Assembly (NCBI GenBank): GCA_030145395.1
Contig: JAQYVR010000156.1
Location: 1 to 38,223, forward strand
Source: Desulfobacteria bacterium
GTDB taxonomy: Bacteria; Desulfobacterota; Desulfobacteria; Desulfobacterales; C00003060
Length of the DNA: 38,223 bases
Reading direction: 5' to 3'
The notes under the pieces: generated by a model
The model's input: only the letters and a program-made list of their open reading frames with translations
What the model was told of the DNA's origin: nothing
The model's database searches: none
Position numbers and translations under genes: made by a program
In this document: piece after piece, positions 928 through 20,345 of the stretch
How positions within the stretch are numbered: the stretch's first letter is position 1
Layout: every line of letters starts with the position of its first letter

Positions 928-2061
928 GTGTCCGAAATACGAAAGCTGGGCTTTAGTCGGCCCACGGAAGGTGAGATTCTTGTCCAACTGGCAGGGAGCT
1001 GGAGAATTGGCCAAGAGCTCCCTTCGGAAAGCGACGTGCAGACCCAGCTTAAATCTGGCCCTCCGATACAGCGTATTGGCTTCGACAGCAGAGAACTCAC
1101 AGGCTGGGACACGGGCCTTCTGAGCTTTTTGATTAAAGTTCTTGAACATTGCTCGACAGCCAAGATCGAAGTAGAGAAAGATGGACTGCCTGAGGGCGTA
1201 CAGCGGCTCATCGCACTAGCGACTGCCGTTCCTGAGAAGAAAGACGCAAAACAGCAAGGTGAGCGTCCGTCGTTTCTAGCGCGGGTGGGCGAGGATGCAA
1301 TCGTGTTCGTGAAGTCGGCAGGCGAGCTGATCACCTTCCTCGGAGAAGCCTGTGTGGTCGTCGCCAGGCTGTTGACCGGAAAGGTCCGCTTTCGTCTCTC
1401 TGACCTGGGTCTTTTTCTCCAGGAATCTGGCGCCCAAGCCCTTCCGATCGTTTCCCTTATCAGTCTCCTTGTGGGCTTGATCTTAGCTTTTGTTGGAATC
1501 ATCCAGTTGAAGCTCTTCGGGGCCCAGATCTACGTAGCCGATCTAGTGGGGATCGCCATGGTCCGTGAGATGGGGGCCATCATGACGGGCATCGTCATGG
1601 CAGGTCGCACAGGAGCTGCTTTTGCGGCCCAGCTAGGCACCATGGAGGTCAACGAGGAGATCGATGCCCTGAAGACTCTGGGCATTCCTCCCATGGAATT
1701 TCTGGTGCTCCCCCGGATGCTTTCATTAACGCTGATGATGCCCCTTTTGTGCCTGTATGCCAACCTGATGGGGATCCTGGGTGGCGCAGCGGTCGCCGTG
1801 GGCGTCTATGGCGTGAATCCAATCCTCTATTTCAACCGCACCAGGGAGGCTGTGGGCCTGAATGATTTGGGGATAGGGCTGTTTATGAGCGTTGTTTTCG
1901 GAGTGCTGGTGGCCCTTGCTGGCTGTCTCAGGGGCATGCAGTGCGGCCGCAGTGCGTCCGCTGTAGGGGGCGCAGCAACCTCTGCGGTGGTGACGGGAAT
2001 TGTCGCCATCATCGTGGCCACAGCCATCATAACTGTGATGTGTGATGTGATAGGAATTTGA
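928..2061 (+). CDS. mlaE: STAS-MlaE fusion ABC permease (phospholipid transport)
   Basis: Inner-membrane permease of an MCE/Mla lipid transporter. Residues 1 to about 100 form a soluble STAS-like region, the fold of MlaB in E. coli; residues about 110-377 are the MlaE (DUF140) permease with several membrane segments. The family signature is clear around REMGAIMTGIVMAGRTGAAF and the following EEIDAL. The start is GTG after a GGGGG-type ribosome-binding site. Because the STAS part is fused to the permease, a separate MlaB subunit is not needed, and none is encoded nearby. It leads the set mlaE-mlaF-mlaD-auxiliary lipoprotein. The substrate is probably phospholipid by family knowledge; direction of transport cannot be told from sequence. 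Confidence 0.9.
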   Translation: MSEIRKLGFSRPTEGEILVQLAGSWRIGQELPSESDVQTQLKSGPPIQRIGFDSRELTGWDTGLLSFLIKVLEHCSTAKIEVEKDGLPEGVQRLIALATAVPEKKDAKQQGERPSFLARVGEDAIVFVKSAGELITFLGEACVVVARLLTGKVRFRLSDLGLFLQESGAQALPIVSLISLLVGLILAFVGIIQLKLFGAQIYVADLVGIAMVREMGAIMTGIVMAGRTGAAFAAQLGTMEVNEEIDALKTLGIPPMEFLVLPRMLSLTLMMPLLCLYANLMGILGGAAVAVGVYGVNPILYFNRTREAVGLNDLGIGLFMSVVFGVLVALAGCLRGMQCGRSASAVGGAATSAVVTGIVAIIVATAIITVMCDVIGI

Positions 2062-2068
2062 TAGCCCA

Positions 2069-2140
2069 CAGGGATCAGGAAATGGGTTTCACTATCTATC
2101 GAGATCTTGAAAACAAGCTGACCCCCGATCCCTGACCCCT
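2069..2140. repeat. 7-bp iterated units with an inverted partner, mlaE-mlaF spacer
   Basis: At 2120-2140 three consecutive 7-bp units of the type GAYCCCY occur (middle unit GATCCCT at 2127-2133). The reverse complement AGGGATC lies upstream at 2070-2076, so the two sides can pair over about 50 bases. The element lies inside the likely mlaEFD transcript. Confidence 0.55.
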
Positions 2141-2156
2141 GTAAGCTATTAGAGAT

Positions 2157-2915
2157 ATGAATCAAAGAGAAGCTCACATAACAGTCCGCGACCTTACCAT
2201 GGCATACGGAAGCTTCGTTTTGATGCGAGACATGAACTTCACGATCAACCGTGGTGATATTTTCATTATCATGGGAGGTAGCGGTTGTGGCAAGAGCACA
2301 CTTATGCGGCACCTGGTGGGCCTTAAAGCCCCTGCCAAGGGGCAGGTTTTCTACAATGGGATAAGCTTCTGGGATGCGCCGCCTCAGGAAAGAGACCGCA
2401 TTATGAGAGGGGTGGGCATTCTTTACCAGAGTGGCGCGCTGTGGAGTTCCATGACCTTAGCGGAAAACGTGGCCCTCCCCTTGGAGCAGTATACGGATTT
2501 AAATCCCGGCGAAATCCGCGAAGTGGTTTCACTGAAGCTGGCACTCGTGGGCCTGGCAGGCTTTGAGGAGTTTTACCCGTCTGAGATCAGCGGTGGCATG
2601 CGCAAGCGGGCCGGCTTGGCACGAGCCATGGCTCTGGACCCGGAACTTCTTTGTTTTGATGAGCCATCAGCCGGGCTCGATCCGGTGAGCGCAAGACGGT
2701 TGGATGATCTGATTCTGGAACTTCGAGACAGCCTGGGCGCCACTGTGGTGGTAGTGACACATGAACTGGCGAGCATCTTCGCCGTGGGAGACAACTCGGT
2801 TTTCCTCGATCCAGAGACCCGAACCGTGATTGCCGGTGGGGATCCGAACGAGCTTCTGGCAGAATCTGAGGACCCAAAGGTGCGAAGTTTTCTTACCAGG
2901 GGAGAGACAGGGTGA
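2157..2915 (+). CDS. mlaF: MlaF-type ABC transporter ATPase
   Basis: A 252-residue ATP-binding subunit that would pair with the MlaE permease. Walker A is GGSGCGKST near residue 41, the signature is ISGGMRKRAGLARAMA, and Walker B/D-loop reads CFDEPSAGLDP. The switch histidine is in VVTHEL. Length and motif spacing are normal for MlaF. The ribosome-binding site is weak (AGAGAT). It acts on the cytoplasmic face of the inner membrane and powers movement of lipid through the MlaE-MlaD complex. The order permease-ATPase-MCE protein is the standard one. Confidence 0.92.
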   Translation: MNQREAHITVRDLTMAYGSFVLMRDMNFTINRGDIFIIMGGSGCGKSTLMRHLVGLKAPAKGQVFYNGISFWDAPPQERDRIMRGVGILYQSGALWSSMTLAENVALPLEQYTDLNPGEIREVVSLKLALVGLAGFEEFYPSEISGGMRKRAGLARAMALDPELLCFDEPSAGLDPVSARRLDDLILELRDSLGATVVVVTHELASIFAVGDNSVFLDPETRTVIAGGDPNELLAESEDPKVRSFLTRGETG

Positions 2916-2940
2916 GGGAGGGAAGTGAACAACCCTATAT

Positions 2941-2984
2941 GGAATGTTGGAATAGTGGGGTGCACTCCAACACTCCTTCACTCC
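2941..2984. repeat. 8-bp iterated units in inverted halves, mlaF-mlaD spacer
   Basis: The left half has plus-strand units of the type GGAATGTT; the right half has the same kind of 8-bp unit on the other strand (CTCCAACA, CTCCTTCA). The centre GGGGTGCACTCC is nearly palindromic. The 21 bases at 2964-2984 match 10546-10566 in reverse complement at 19 of 21 positions. Confidence 0.6.
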
Positions 2985-3020
2985 TAGTTCTTTCGCAGAC
3001 ATTGGGGGAACAGATAGACC

Positions 3021-4022
3021 ATGAATAAACAAGTAAGCAAGACGGTCATCGGAGGTTTTGTCATCAGCGCCATCGCTTTGCTGGTTGTGGGCATACTCAT
3101 CTTTGGCAGCGGCAAGTTCTTCAAAAAGACGAGTAAGTATGTTCTTTTTTTTGAGGGTTCTGTGAAGGGTTTGAGTGCCGGGTCACCGGTGGCTTTTCGA
3201 GGGGTGACAATCGGCTCAGTAGCAAGTGTGCTCCTGCATGCGGATCCCGAAACCCTGAATGTCCAGATCCCCGTGATCATTGACCTGGAGCCAGACAGGG
3301 TGCGCCTGACTCGCGGAGCACGTGGCTCTCGGCAGAAGAATTTACCAAAACTCATAGACCTCGGAATGAGGGCACAGCTTACAATGGAAAGCTTGGTCAC
3401 TGGCCAGTTGATGATTGACTTAGATTTCCACCCTGAAGAGCCTGCTAGGCTGGTGGGCACTGACCTCAAGTATCCTGAGATTCCTACTATTCCTTCCACT
3501 TTTGAACAGATCACAGAGGTTGTTGAGAAGCTTCCGATCAAAGAGATCTTCCAAAAACTTTCAGCTGCTGCTGACGGCCTGGAACACGTTCTTAATTCTC
3601 CTGAGTTAAAGGAGATTATTTCCTCCCTCAAGGGGGCTGCTCAGGGGGCTGACAAACTGATCATGAGTGCGAACAAGCTTGTCAAGAATGTTGATGGTCA
3701 GGTCGGACCTCTGGCAGAGAGTATCAAGGTAACTGCCATGGACGCTCAAAAACTGCTTAAGGACGTGGACAGGGAAATAGTACCTGTGGTGTCGAGCATC
3801 CGGACTGCCGCTGATGCGGCTAAGGCTGCCTTGGTGCAGGGCGAGGAGACGCTTAAAACACTTGAAAATGGTATCGGGGAGGATTCTGCCTTGGTTTATG
3901 ACCTGAGAAACGCCTTAAAGGAGTTGTCTTCAGCATCCCGATCCATACGAGTTTTGGCTGACTACTTAGAACAATACCCGGACGCCTTAATTCGGGGTAA
4001 AGGTTCACTAGGAGGTAAGTGA
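3021..4022 (+). CDS. mlaD: MlaD-like MCE-domain protein
   Basis: A 333-residue protein with one N-terminal membrane segment (about residues 9-31), a single MCE domain (about 38-125, with the typical GL..GSPV.F.GV.IG pattern), and a long helical C-terminal part rich in heptad-like Leu/Ala spacing (about 170-320). MCE proteins form periplasmic hexameric rings or tubes that bind lipid and deliver it to or from the permease. It is longer than E. coli MlaD (about 183 residues) and closer in plan to longer single-MCE proteins such as those with needle-like helical tails. Its stop codon overlaps the next start as TGATG, so translation of the two is probably coupled. Confidence 0.9.
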   Translation: MNKQVSKTVIGGFVISAIALLVVGILIFGSGKFFKKTSKYVLFFEGSVKGLSAGSPVAFRGVTIGSVASVLLHADPETLNVQIPVIIDLEPDRVRLTRGARGSRQKNLPKLIDLGMRAQLTMESLVTGQLMIDLDFHPEEPARLVGTDLKYPEIPTIPSTFEQITEVVEKLPIKEIFQKLSAAADGLEHVLNSPELKEIISSLKGAAQGADKLIMSANKLVKNVDGQVGPLAESIKVTAMDAQKLLKDVDREIVPVVSSIRTAADAAKAALVQGEETLKTLENGIGEDSALVYDLRNALKELSSASRSIRVLADYLEQYPDALIRGKGSLGGK

Positions 4023-4645
4023 TGGGCCACATGTCTATTCGATTTGCGGTATTTGTCCTTGGCCTCTCTCTCGTTGTTTCGGCAGGATGTCTCAACCTTG
4101 GTGAGGGCACACAAGAGACGACGAGGTATTATGTTTTGAGTCCCCTCTCCATCTCAGAACTGAAAACGGAAGTCCTTGACGACACGAAGTCCGTGGCCAT
4201 CGGTCTGGGTCCTGTAACCTTTCCGGAGTATCTCAATCGACCTCAGGTTGTAGTCCGCGGCGGCCGCAATCAGCTACAGATCGCTGAGTTTGCCCGCTGG
4301 GCAGAGCCGTTGGGGGAGAATTTTTCTCGCGTCCTTGCGGAGAACCTTTCGTCTCTGCTCGCTACGAATCACATCACTCTCTTTGGCAGCAAGGGATGGA
4401 TGCCAACGAACTATCAAGTGACGGTGGACGTTGTCCGCTTTGACGGAACCCCCGGTGAGAAGGCTTCGTTGGTCGCTCGCTGGACGGTTTTGGGAGATGA
4501 CAGGGCAAAGGTGCTCCAGAAGAAGTCAAGTTTTTCTGAGCCCACAGACGGGCAGAGCTACGAGGCGCTGGTCTCAGCCGAGAACAGATTGGTGACGGCT
4601 CTCAGTCGCGAGATTGCAGCTGCAATTAATGCCGTGGCCCAGTAG
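4022..4645 (+). CDS. PqiC-like ABC-type transport auxiliary lipoprotein
   Basis: A 207-residue lipoprotein of the DUF330/PqiC type that accompanies MCE transporters and is thought to contact the outer membrane end of the system. The start is the ATG at 4022, chosen because AGGAGG lies six bases upstream and the ATG overlaps the mlaD stop. The signal sequence ends in a lipobox with Cys23 (VSAGC). Family-like features include YYVLSPL near the start, the GP...P.YL.RP..V.R segment, and F.RWAEPL.... before a C-terminal helical end. It most likely completes the four-gene MCE lipid transporter. Confidence 0.85.
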   Translation: MGHMSIRFAVFVLGLSLVVSAGCLNLGEGTQETTRYYVLSPLSISELKTEVLDDTKSVAIGLGPVTFPEYLNRPQVVVRGGRNQLQIAEFARWAEPLGENFSRVLAENLSSLLATNHITLFGSKGWMPTNYQVTVDVVRFDGTPGEKASLVARWTVLGDDRAKVLQKKSSFSEPTDGQSYEALVSAENRLVTALSREIAAAINAVAQ

Positions 4646-15105: not shown

Positions 15106-17249
15106 CATTCCCTCCCTGCAAACCAACCTTGATTCCGATATCTATCTTTGAGTTCACCCAGCTTGCCTTTGTTCCAGCTTGAAATCGTCGTAAAATAACC
15201 CGTGATTCGGGTTATTCCATCCACCTCAGTGCTGCCGCACCAGGGGCAGGACTCCTGAAGCCCTCGGCTTACCTTGCCACACTCTTTGCAACTGGTGAAT
15301 TCGGGCGAAAAGGCGATCTGATCATTTTTACTTTGTTTAAAGGTCTTGATCACAAAATTGGCCAATGATTCAGCCGGCGGATTGGACTCACCGAGCCATA
15401 TATGGGTTAAGGCCCCTGCCTCAATGATGGGGTGGAAACGCCCTTCAAGCTTGACTCGCTCGATTGGGTTCATGCTTGCACCCACATCAAAAAGGGTTGA
15501 GTTCGTGTAGTACACCTCGCCCTCGGGGAAATTTCCCTTGATCACCGTGGATGACTCTTCGGGAAAATATTTCAGGTCCAGCTTTGCAAAACGGTACGAC
15601 GTGCTTTCCGCGGGGGTTTGTTCCAGCACAAAGCGCATGTTGTGTTTTCGGCTATGCTGGTCAGCCACAAGCTTCATGTGGGCGATGATTTTAAGGCCAA
15701 ACTTCATCGCGTCAGCGGACGCATGCATCGGCTCGCCCGTGTGGTACTGTATAAGCTCATTCATACCGACCATGCCTATAAGATAGGTGCACCGATGCAT
15801 TCTAAGATACGGCGTTCCATCTAGGTCCATATTGAGCAGGCTCAAGGGCCCAGACTTTTTATGGGAAAGAAGGCTCTCGATAAAATCTCGTTTCTCCTGG
15901 TGGGCCTTTACGGCTATCCGCACAAGCTCACCGATCCTTGTAAAGAGTCTGGTGTCGTCCCCTTGAGCCTCATAGGCAAGTCTGGGCAGATTCAGAGTCA
16001 CATTCTGAAGTGCCGAATACCTCATCTTCCAAGGTTGTTTGGCATCTTCGAGGTCCGATTGCTCCAGTTTGAAGCTCAGTCGACAACACTCAGATATCTT
16101 GGCCGTCTCTCCCCGATCGAACACAAAGTACGTATTTCCCTTGTCAGAGGCCACATCACAGATATGGTTCAAAAAGGCCTCGTGACCAGGCGTCTTGAAG
16201 AACTTCTCCGTGATATGCACCAACGGTTTTGGAAAGAAAAAGGGCCTGCCTGCACCATCTCCACCCTTAAATACGTCAAAGAGCTTCCACACGAAGCGCT
16301 GGGCCTCCTTTTCGTACTCGGCATATGTCTTGCCCGTGTATACGCCTCCCGGGCCGATGGCGGGCACATCCTCGAAGTGTTTGGGGACTTCCCAGTACAG
16401 ATTAATATCTGTAAAGATCGCCTGGCCTCCACGCGCCACCGCCTGCTGTGAAAACTCAAAGATCATCATCTGGGCCAGTTGCTCCACGCCCCGATCATCG
16501 AGTTCTTCCAGATATGGGGCAAAAAACAGATTGACTGCGTCCCAGCCAATGGCACCGGCAAAATTACCCTGTAAGGCTGCTGCAAACTTGACCATGTGGG
16601 CAAGCAGGACCTCGGCATGTTTGGCTGGTTTGGCCATGGCCAAGGAATTGGGCAGATTCAGGCCGAATTTTTTCAGATATTCCAGAGATTGTCCTGAGCA
16701 GTACGGGCGGTCGATGAATCCCAGGTCGTGCAGGTGAATGGCCCCTTGCATATGGGCGTCTCCCACGTCCGGTGAAAACACGTTCAAAAGAGCATATTCC
16801 TTCTTAATACTTTCCGCCAAGGTCAGGTTGGTCGCTTCGGGCCCATGAGGGACATTGGCGTTCTCCTTGTTGGGATGCATGATCATCTGCTCAACGTCGT
16901 ACAGGGGAACTCCAAGACGCGTGTGCAACTTCCGGGCCTGCTCCAACCCCCGTTCAATGAGCTTGGCATCCACCAACTCTCTGATCAGTGGCGAGGTGAC
17001 CATGGAGATGCTGGAGGACAGGATCGTCTCCTGAACTTCCAGGCTGATCGCCTCGGCCGTATCCTGGTCAACCAGGGCTTCTCGGACCATGGCATCCACG
17101 ATCTTTTGACGGTCCCAGCTGTCTATAGCCTCACCAGACGTTCGGACAAAAAGGGCTATGTCTGTGGTTTCGTGCATATGGCCTTCGGTCCCGACTCCGC
17201 TTCGGGAAGTTTCCTTATCAGCATGAGAAAATTCCAAGAGATTGCCCAT
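15105..17249 (-). CDS. nrdD: Anaerobic (class III) ribonucleoside-triphosphate reductase
   Basis: A 714-residue glycyl-radical enzyme that makes deoxyribonucleotides without oxygen. The N-terminal region (about residues 30-115) resembles an ATP-cone regulatory domain. The C-terminus has the zinc-binding cysteines 654, 657, 668 and 671 (CKEC, CPWC) and the radical loop RITGY with Gly684. The internal ISECCRLSF segment carries cysteines of the active-site region. I chose the ATG at 17249, with GGGAGG nine bases upstream; an in-frame TTG 66 bases further upstream is less likely. The gene is preceded by a promoter with NrdR boxes and overlaps the redoxin gene. Confidence 0.93.
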   Translation of the reverse strand: MGNLLEFSHADKETSRSGVGTEGHMHETTDIALFVRTSGEAIDSWDRQKIVDAMVREALVDQDTAEAISLEVQETILSSSISMVTSPLIRELVDAKLIERGLEQARKLHTRLGVPLYDVEQMIMHPNKENANVPHGPEATNLTLAESIKKEYALLNVFSPDVGDAHMQGAIHLHDLGFIDRPYCSGQSLEYLKKFGLNLPNSLAMAKPAKHAEVLLAHMVKFAAALQGNFAGAIGWDAVNLFFAPYLEELDDRGVEQLAQMMIFEFSQQAVARGGQAIFTDINLYWEVPKHFEDVPAIGPGGVYTGKTYAEYEKEAQRFVWKLFDVFKGGDGAGRPFFFPKPLVHITEKFFKTPGHEAFLNHICDVASDKGNTYFVFDRGETAKISECCRLSFKLEQSDLEDAKQPWKMRYSALQNVTLNLPRLAYEAQGDDTRLFTRIGELVRIAVKAHQEKRDFIESLLSHKKSGPLSLLNMDLDGTPYLRMHRCTYLIGMVGMNELIQYHTGEPMHASADAMKFGLKIIAHMKLVADQHSRKHNMRFVLEQTPAESTSYRFAKLDLKYFPEESSTVIKGNFPEGEVYYTNSTLFDVGASMNPIERVKLEGRFHPIIEAGALTHIWLGESNPPAESLANFVIKTFKQSKNDQIAFSPEFTSCKECGKVSRGLQESCPWCGSTEVDGITRITGYFTTISSWNKGKLGELKDRYRNQGWFAGRE

Positions 17250-17585: not shown

Positions 17586-18626
17586 TTATTCAGAGGCGAA
17601 TAGGCGACGAATCTTAGCCTTAAAAGGCGGGGTGATGACTCCTTTTTCTGTAATAATCGCAGAGACATATCTATGAGGGGTGACATCAAAGGCGGGATTC
17701 TCGATCCCCACGCCCTCGGGCACGCATCTTCTGCCCTGATGGTGGGTAACCTCTTTCTCGTGCCGTTGTTCAATCGGAATCTCTTTTCCGGTTTTGATAG
17801 AAGCGTCGATCGTGGACATAGGCGCAGCCACATAAAAGGGAATCTTGTGTGTTCTGGCAAGGATGGCCACCATGTAGGTACCGATCTTGTTTGCCACATC
17901 GCCATTTGCGGCAATGCGGTCGGCCCCCACGACGACTGCATCGACTTTCCCGCGCTGCATCAAATATCCGGCTGAATTGTCGGTGATCACGGTCACGGGT
18001 ATGCGTGACTCCTTCATCTCCCAAGCCGTGAGGCGTGCACCCTGCAAAAACGGACGGGTCTCGTCAGCAACGACTTCGATCTGTTTTCCGGCCTCCACAG
18101 CTGCTCTAACTACTCCTAACGCGGTGCCGTAGCCGCCAGTAGCCAAGGCGCCTGCATTGCAATGGGTCAAAACACGGTTTCCGTCTTTCAGCAGCCGCTG
18201 CCCCTGGCGTCCCATTGCCTTATTGATGGCAATATCTTCTTCCAGGATCGCCTGGGCCTCTTTCACAAGGCGCAACTTCACCTCTCCCGGTTCCCTGTGG
18301 CTAATCTCATCTGCCACCTTCTTCATCCGTTCAACAGCCCACGCGAGATTTGCCGCTGTTGGACGCGCAGCAACCATTTCACGGCATATGGCATCAAACC
18401 TTGCCCTGAAACGATCCATGCGGGCGGCTCGGATCTTCAGCGCACCTAAAGCAACACCCATAGCAGCGGCCACACCGATGGCCGGGGCCCCGCGAATAAC
18501 AAGGTCTTTAATGGAACGGATGACCGAGCGATAGTCCTTGCAGATAACGTACCTTTCCTGCATAGGAAGCTTTCGCTGATCGATCATGACAACCTGGTCG
18601 TCTCTCCACTCAATTGTCTTTAGCAT
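17586..18626 (-). CDS. mtnA: S-methyl-5-thioribose-1-phosphate isomerase
   Basis: A 346-residue enzyme of the methionine salvage pathway, converting 5-methylthioribose-1-phosphate to the ribulose form. RGAPAIG (45-51) is the substrate-binding signature, the catalytic Cys156 is in THCNAGALATGGYGTALGV and the catalytic Asp236 in VVGADRIAANGD. Length is normal. The start is the ATG at 18626 (MLKTIEW, as in relatives); an upstream in-frame ATG at 18683 abuts a hairpin stem and adds 19 unrelated residues. No other salvage genes are in the window, so the downstream fate of the product cannot be read here. Confidence 0.92.
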   Translation of the reverse strand: MLKTIEWRDDQVVMIDQRKLPMQERYVICKDYRSVIRSIKDLVIRGAPAIGVAAAMGVALGALKIRAARMDRFRARFDAICREMVAARPTAANLAWAVERMKKVADEISHREPGEVKLRLVKEAQAILEEDIAINKAMGRQGQRLLKDGNRVLTHCNAGALATGGYGTALGVVRAAVEAGKQIEVVADETRPFLQGARLTAWEMKESRIPVTVITDNSAGYLMQRGKVDAVVVGADRIAANGDVANKIGTYMVAILARTHKIPFYVAAPMSTIDASIKTGKEIPIEQRHEKEVTHHQGRRCVPEGVGIENPAFDVTPHRYVSAIITEKGVITPPFKAKIRRLFASE

Positions 18627-18683
18627 GTCTCTCGCCCGCTCCCTTTGGTCGCTCGAGCCCCCAGAGGTCACAGAGATAAACAA

Positions 18684-18718
18684 TTTGTCTGATTTCTTGG
18701 GAAGAGAAATCAGACAAA
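18684..18718. repeat. Hairpin 1 of a matched pair upstream of mtnA
   Basis: A perfect 14-bp stem (left arm TTTGTCTGATTTCT) with a 7-base loop. It lies 58 bases before the mtnA ATG, probably in its leader. No T-run follows. See the second hairpin at 18815-18849, which has the same stem and loop lengths and a related stem sequence. Confidence 0.75.
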
Positions 18719-18814
18719 ACCCTCAGCCACTCGCGTGACATTTGCGTGCTTGCCCCGGCCAACACGGATGGGTCTCAGATGAGTGAACACCTCCCGCGAC
18801 AGCGGGATTGCAGG

Positions 18815-18849
18815 TTGACCAGATTTCCCCTCTCAGGAAATCTGGTCAA
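18815..18849. repeat. Hairpin 2 of a matched pair, gatB-mtnA spacer
   Basis: A perfect 14-bp stem (left arm TTGACCAGATTTCC) with a 7-base loop, 131 bp from hairpin 1. Nine of fourteen stem positions match hairpin 1; the five differences are compensated on the other arm. On the minus strand it lies after the gatB stop without a T-run. Confidence 0.75.
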
Positions 18850-18852
18850 AGA

Positions 18853-18879
18853 GTCTGTGCCCTCTGTGAACTCTGTGAG
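18853..18879. repeat. 9-bp tandem array (three units)
   Basis: Three consecutive 9-bp units of the type CTCTGTGAA follow hairpin 2, ending 35 bp from the gatB stop codon. The first unit differs at three positions from the second and the third at one. Confidence 0.55.
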
Positions 18880-18914
18880 AGTAATAAAGCTTCTCTAAAC
18901 TTCGTGATCGTCGA

Positions 18915-20345
18915 CTATTGCTCCAATTCCTTCTTCAGGATCTCGTTGACCATTTTGGGATTTGCTTTGCCGCGGGTGGCCTTCATCACCTGTCCCACAA
19001 AGAATCCAAACAACTTGGTTTTTCCTGCCCTATAATCTGAAACCTCTTTTTCGTGGTTGCTTACCACCTGTTTGACAACATCGGTAATAGCATCAGTATC
19101 TGTAACCTGGACGAGACCTTTTTCCTGGACGATGGTCTCCGGTGGTTTACCGCTCGATACCATCTCGTCAAACACCGTCTTTGCAATCTTGCCGCTGATG
19201 ACCCCCGAGTCGATCAACCGCAGGAGTTCGGCCAGGCGCTCAGGAGAGACCGGGGATTCCTCAATGGTCTTGTTCTCTGCTTTTAACATGCCCAGAATGC
19301 TCCCCATGACCCAGTTGCTGACGATCTTTGGCTCCGGAAAGTGCTCTGCGCATGCCTCAAAATAATCCGCCAGGAGGCGAGAACTTATCAGGACCTGCGC
19401 GTCATACAAAGGAATGTCGTACGCCTCGATAAGACGCGCCCTCTTTTCGTCAGGCAGTTCCGGAAGCGAGCTGCGGATCTCCTCGGTCCATCCTTCATCA
19501 ATCACAAGGGGGAGTAGGTCCGGATCAGGAAAATAACGGTAGTCGTGGGCTTCCTCCTTGCCACGCATGGAGACAGTCACCCCTTTGGCCTCGTCCCAGA
19601 GTCGGGTCTCTTGGACTAGTTTCCGGCCGTCTTCGACGACCCCCTCTTGTCGCTCGATCTCATAGATCAGGGCATTTTCCACGTGTTTAAAGGAGTTCAT
19701 GTTCTTCAGTTCCGCGCGTGTTCCAAATGTGTCTGTTCCCACGGGTCGGATAGAAACATTCGCGTCACACCTGAAACTCCCCTCCTCCATATTCCCGTCG
19801 CATATTTCCAGGTACTGAAGGATGGCTCGCAGTTGTCGAAGATATGCCCCGGCCTCTTCGGGCGTTCGTATGTCGGGTTCGCTCACGATTTCGATCAGGG
19901 GAACCCCTGTCCGGTTGAAATCAACTGCACTAACCGGTCGATGCGGATCGTGTATAAGCTTTCCGGCATCTTCTTCCATGTGTATACGGGTAATGCCGAT
20001 GCGCCTTCTTTTGCCATTGACCTCGATAAAGACATGCCCGTGTTCTGCAATGGGAAGCTCATACTGGGATATCTGGTACCCTTTGGGGAGATCGGGATAG
20101 AAGTAGTTCTTCCGGGCAAACCGGCTTTCACGAGCAATGGTGCAGTTTATAGCCAAAGCCATACGAATGGTGTAGTCCACCACCTTGCGGTTCAGGACAG
20201 GAAGCACGCCGGGCATCCCGAGGCACACCGGGCAAGTGTGAGTGTTGGGCGGTGCCCCAAACTCGGTGGAGCAACTGCAAAAGATCTTGGTCTTTGTCAG
20301 GAGCTGGGCATGCACCTCAAGACCAATTACGGCTTCATATTCCAT
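18915..20345 (-). CDS. gatB: Asp-tRNA(Asn)/Glu-tRNA(Gln) amidotransferase subunit B
   Basis: A 476-residue subunit of the GatCAB complex that amidates mischarged Glu-tRNA(Gln) or Asp-tRNA(Asn). The N-terminus [12 protein letters not shown], the Cys cluster CSCSTEFG...[18 protein letters not shown] and the C-terminal YqeY-like helical domain (ending [12 protein letters not shown]) are all present at normal length. gatA and gatC are not in the window. The start ATG at 20345 has a modest AAGGAA site. Confidence 0.95.

Follow-up and report, generated by a model that had tools for sequence, protein, structure and literature searches.

The gap between gatB and mtnA in this Desulfobacteria contig raises the question of why two long and similar hairpins stand directly upstream of mtnA, and what their matched base changes mean. 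The gap lies in the window, that is the whole stretch of 38,223 nucleotides analysed, and is bounded by the stop of gatB (18915..20345, minus strand, stop at 18915; TIGR00133) and by the start ATG, at 18626, of mtnA, encoding S-methyl-5-thioribose-1-phosphate isomerase (17586..18626, minus strand; NF004326 and TIGR00512). First, we could confirm both structures exactly as the first-pass annotation had described them. Hairpin 1 (18684..18718, plus strand; stem arms TTTGTCTGATTTCT and AGAAATCAGACAAA) and hairpin 2 (18815..18849, plus strand; stem arms TTGACCAGATTTCC and GGAAATCTGGTCAA) have perfect 14-bp stems and 7-nt loops, 9 of 14 positions are identical between the two stems, each of the five differences being paired on the opposite arm, and no T-run follows either stem, plain termination still being unlikely. 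Second, these are the longest perfect short-loop hairpins of the 38-kb window. A chance origin can be ruled out, since the next longest measures only 11 bp and the window holds two occurrences of the core pattern GATTTC-N(3-14)-GAAATC versus 0.07 expected; genome-wide this pattern was found 11 times, versus once for the reversed control. Further short perfect hairpins at 26-49 and 15194-15216 (10 bp and 9 bp, respectively) are unlike the repeat described below. The gene content of the window is unremarkable, including, as far as translations were read, a lipid-transport (Mla-like) operon (928-4645) and a cluster of branched-chain amino acid type ABC transporter genes with acyl-CoA ligases (26-38 kb).

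By aligning the gap with similar sequences, we found that both hairpins lie inside a single interspersed repeat of ~290 bp (window ~18628-18915), the two halves of which are inverted copies of each other. Because of this arrangement, any one copy can be expected to show matching stems with paired differences, and the loops of hairpins 1 and 2 are complementary. The whole element of the window (18628..18915, plus strand) consists of a core (18628-18881) and a right outer inverted repeat, and was delimited by full-length nhmmer and blast matches and by alignment with 49 other copies. Its parts come in a constant order, namely a left arm (TCTCTCGCCCGCTCCCTTYGGTCGCTCGAGC-CACAGAGATCACAGAGAT), hairpin 1, a short GC-rich hairpin and a variable centre, followed by a second short hairpin (CCCGCGACAGCGGG), hairpin 2 and a right arm (AACTCTGTGCCTCTGTGGGCTCTGTGAGAGA). 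In the window, the left arm reads TCTCTCGCCCGCTCCC..GGTCGCTCGAG..CAGAGGTCACAGAGA (18628..18677, plus strand); it is conserved in the alignment and part-complementary to the right arm AGAGTCTGTGCCCTCTGTGAACTCTGTGAGAG (18850..18881, plus strand), with which it pairs in the consensus fold. The short inner hairpin (18793..18806, plus strand) is present in most copies and the inner TCTCTC/GAGAGA arms in nearly all, while the same CTCTGTG-type motif stands outside each hairpin, in opposite orientations. The loop of hairpin 2, CCTCTCA, is the commonest in the family (49 of 84 copies), whereas that of hairpin 1 reads TGGGAAG here instead of the usual TGAGAGG or a near variant. A motif scan placed the right outer inverted repeat at 18900..18915 on the minus strand, where it reads GTCGACGATCACGAAG (compare GTAASYGATCACGGG for the family); its end coincides with the final base of the gatB stop codon. 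On the other side the core ends 1 bp from the mtnA start codon; neither the left outer inverted repeat nor a target duplication is recognisable in the window copy.

Elsewhere in this genome, the stretch from ~18628 to 18888 has a match to its left half at C206 (85%) and to its full length at C211 (66%); further matches lie in other genomes of the genus. In total, 18 of 22 genus genomes carry the repeat, the richest with 52, 45, 36, 24 and 22 matches, where a single copy may yield two matches. From fetched loci we recovered 59 complete copies in one set and 84 distinct full-length copies in a larger one, about 210-340 bp long and without coding capacity. The copies lie mostly between genes, with ORFs of at least 150 aa overlapped by at least 100 bp in only 8 of 61 copies. 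A scan of 84,980 species genomes for the left-arm pattern yielded 105 stretches, of which 80 were listed by title; all of the latter come from metagenome-assembled genomes, of Desulfobacterota type or unresolved proteobacterial. Beyond the genus, we found mostly arms that lack hairpins, and the hairpin-bearing version seems to have expanded within this genus or close to it. One short hairpin-less version, in a single-contig Deltaproteobacteria chromosome (CP070673.1, L229:5240-5450), has both outer ends and a possible 6/8 duplication, and is itself interrupted by an inserted palindrome. Recurrent short copies of ~95-100 bp, with both arms kept and both hairpins lost, occur at L047, L148, L143, L149, L150, L156, L203 and L204, and at L158 and L166 the element halves stand ~350 and 745 bp apart through extra DNA, which in L166 includes a palindrome.

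Then, we searched the genus for the joined flanks of 15 copies and found several orthologous sites without the element. The clearest is the comparison of L169 with L201 and L202, in which the insert, with ends GTGCCCGGTCA.. and ..TGATCAATTAC, is bounded by AAAACATC and AAAACTTC and consists of GTGCCCGGTCATAAGTATAATAT, the core and AAAAATACCAACGTGATCAATTAC. This comparison places the true ends 16-25 bp outside the core, and a TA (2-bp) duplication as in IS630, which the core ends had suggested, was therefore dropped. The outer ends have in common an inverted motif near GTAASYGATCACGGG; the terminal inverted repeat GTAASYGATCAC is found in the best preserved copies, whose ends GTAATTGATCA, GTAACCGATTA and GTAAGTGGTCA start with GTAA, and is eroded in most others. 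Among the 12 copies with both ends recognisable, identity of the flanking words peaked at a length of exactly 8 (44%), with 3.5 of 8 bases matching; shuffling the partners gave 2.3, and 4 of 2000 shuffles reached the observed value. Four copies reached 6 or 7 of 8 matches, and none did so at shifts of 1-7; duplications other than that of L169 are TACCCTTG/TACCCTTC (7/8), GCTCTATT/GGTCTACT and AGCAAATC/GGGAAATC (both 6/8). In the remaining 8 of the 12 at most five bases match, and most copies are old.

Which transposase could have moved such an element? IS66 elements have ends beginning GTAAGCG and are flanked by 8-bp direct repeats (PMC11946415), and the outer inverted repeat GTAASYGATCACGGG begins like these ends. 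An apparently complete IS66-type element (L215:776-3352, in genome G015) encodes TnpC (NF033517, E 1e-80), carries GTAACCGTTCACGG on both sides and is flanked by perfect 8-bp repeats (AATAATTG). It is the only IS66 copy with both ends and a perfect duplication. In L214, this end motif recurs at either side with one mismatch but there is no clear duplication, and L219 has it on one side only. Where genus IS66 copies have the ends GTAACYGTTCACGG, their agreement with the element consensus is about 13 of 15 bases. IS66 transposases (PF03050) were detected in 8 of 22 genomes, versus 18 of 22 for the element. A search of the IS66 loci for the element found no hairpins, arms or interior likeness, so that any relation concerns the ends only. 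With its 210-340 bp and no IS66 transposase gene (PF03050), the element is by class at most an IS66-type MITE.

Taken together, these observations make it probable that both hairpins belong to the interior of a single copy of a MITE, a non-autonomous mobile element probably moved by an IS66-type transposase. Like a MITE, it forms interspersed non-coding copies, has terminal inverted repeats and was inserted with target duplication at a site found empty elsewhere. The family, for which our search of open-licence papers found no published description, is previously unlisted and probably IS66-type. We propose that a DDE transposase of this type would have moved the element in trans by recognising GTAA..TGATCAC ends, and that the window copy would have been inserted between gatB and mtnA in an ancestor of part of the genus. 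Copies decay by internal deletion, and the window copy is an old one.

To what extent is pairing itself conserved? RNAalifold predicted 44 pairs from 50 copies, 17 of them with two-sided changes. Our own stem count on 50 copies gave 96.3% paired cells and two-sided compensatory change at 15 pairs in 121 cells; shuffled data gave 33 cells, with none of 500 shuffles reaching the observed value, and slid partners gave 3-31. Likewise, the covariation score was 0.283, against 0.107 for shuffled data (0/500) and 0.02-0.11 for slid partners; two or three outer pairs of helix 1 were one column off in this count, which only lowers the score, and the RNAalifold columns are right. For hairpin 2 alone, 9 of 12 pairs showed two-sided change, with 99.3% of cells paired. 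Comparing nine pairs of orthologous copies, we counted 9 compensated pairs, 5 one-sided changes with pairing retained and 8 broken pairs; six of the compensated pairs come from the window versus G015, where the copies are only 63% identical and replacement by another copy is possible.

The first-pass annotation had read the matched changes as the trace of selection on pairing. Pairing is indeed maintained across 50 copies, but selection is not the sole possible cause, because the hairpins are inverted copies and template-switch repair of palindromes can pair changes without selection while creating and maintaining perfect hairpins (PMC8794818). We consider it quite possible, if short of probable, that the paired changes reflect template switching at quasi-palindromes during replication, a process that is compatible with the MITE reading. 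Even where a copy is old, its stems are nearly perfect and enclose short loops; however, the sequence of the loops and of some stem positions is itself conserved from copy to copy, and pairs broken by a change on one side are found as well. Extrusion of the hairpins would most likely take place in single-stranded DNA or RNA, and their pairing may be kept either by selection on the element or by template-switch repair. With its perfect hairpins, compensated changes and orthologous pairs, this large natural copy set could separate the two.

We also noticed a second, REP-like palindrome (about CCTGCCCYGTTAAATGCGNAGCCTATTTAACCGGGG) inserted in many copies at the same loop point, CCTC|..|TCA. It lies in the loop of hairpin 2 in L138:501-809, L123:501-804, L125, L117, L136 and L170, in the loop of hairpin 1 in L120, L154, L127, L124, L140, L243 and L273, and in the right arm in L115, L118 and L146; it also occupies loops of unrelated hairpins (L222 and L093). 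REPs within longer palindromes are known from other bacteria (PMC3733652). Repeated insertion into loops hints that these are exposed as single-stranded DNA and, if it holds, would be natural evidence of such hairpins opening into single strands inside cells. It is conceivable but rather unlikely that the subterminal hairpins with their conserved loops have a function within the element, being extruded in vivo as single strands of DNA and required for its transposition or maintenance, and that they serve at the same time as landing sites for a REP-like palindrome restricted to hairpin loops.

A role for the host has to be weighed as well, in which the element would have been domesticated as an mRNA stabiliser, an RNase III site or a 5' leader with ribosome-binding site, and compensation would reflect host-level selection on RNA. 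At the gatB-mtnA junction, the window and G015 have the element in full length, G020 retains one half, G005 has a copy with an internal deletion, and G007 and G001 keep end remnants only; in G010 it is absent and gatB and mtnA overlap. In G005 and G007, which have lost the hairpins, the element end GGAGGAAGCGGGCGAGAGAC, or one similar, is still adjacent to where mtnA starts. This end resembles a ribosome-binding site and was perhaps co-opted for mtnA; judged from sequence only, in the window it would supply the candidate ribosome-binding sequence AAAGGGAG (18639..18646, minus strand). In addition, copies lie intergenically, orthologous ones persist between species, 29 of 41 tandem gene pairs have the element turned with its GGGAGCGGGCGAGAGA end towards the start of the downstream gene (hand count), and orthologous copies show compensatory changes (9 pairs, versus 8 broken). 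On the other hand, copies are often lost, truncated or interrupted, the orientation bias could equally come from an insertion-site preference, the orthologues are non-independent and compensated changes can arise without selection through template switching. We thus regard domestication as doubtful. As a MITE copy, the element would now be only a passive 5' leader of mtnA, its end perhaps giving the ribosome-binding site.

Inverted paired hairpins resemble BIME/REPIN structures, which raised the alternative that a Y1 (RAYT or IS200/IS605) transposase acting on single-stranded hairpins moved a REP/BIME-like element. Y1 transposases were found in 20 of 22 genomes, most of them in G005 and G021, which are both copy-rich, whereas G007 (36 matches) and G011 (15 matches) have no Y1 match and the element was near none of 20 fetched Y1 loci. 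Moreover, we observed 8-bp target duplications, which are not generally expected of Y1 transposases. This alternative is therefore weaker than IS66 and appears improbable to us.

Finally, a structured RNA leader controlling mtnA (riboswitch- or attenuator-like), as the first-pass annotation implied, would fit the place of the hairpins in the gatB-mtnA gap, their strong paired stems and compensatory changes. It is nevertheless so improbable that we rejected it, since this structure adjoins many unrelated genes and relatives carry mtnA behind halved, deleted, remnant or absent copies. An Rfam search gave no family at or above the gathering score. The case illustrates how a conspicuous and conserved structure in a leader can turn out to be a fossil mobile element.

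Several known systems can be set beside this element. ERIC and NEMIS/Correia are fold-back intergenic repeats of about 100-160 bp with MITE-like behaviour, but they differ from it in sequence, target duplication and host group, and it has two separate perfect hairpins within arms. REP, BIME and REPIN sequences (PMC3733652, PMC2817692, PMC3116915) are likewise interspersed intergenic palindromes, often in inverted pairs; the unit described here is much longer, has outer inverted repeats and 8-bp duplications, and shows no linkage to Y1 genes, and no GTAG/CGTC tag was noticed in it. IS66 elements are alike in ends that start with GTAA and in 8-bp direct repeats (PMC11946415; L215), and unlike in having transposase genes, a length of ~2.6 kb here and nothing detectable in common in the interiors. 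With bacterial MITEs such as MITEPsy1 (100 nt, PMC3189936), the element has in common that it is short and non-coding, with terminal inverted repeats, a target duplication, many intergenic copies and ends resembling those of a complete IS, but it differs from MITEPsy1 by long internal covarying hairpins with conserved loops, by an 8-bp rather than a 4-bp duplication, and by ends that are IS66-like rather than IS5-like.
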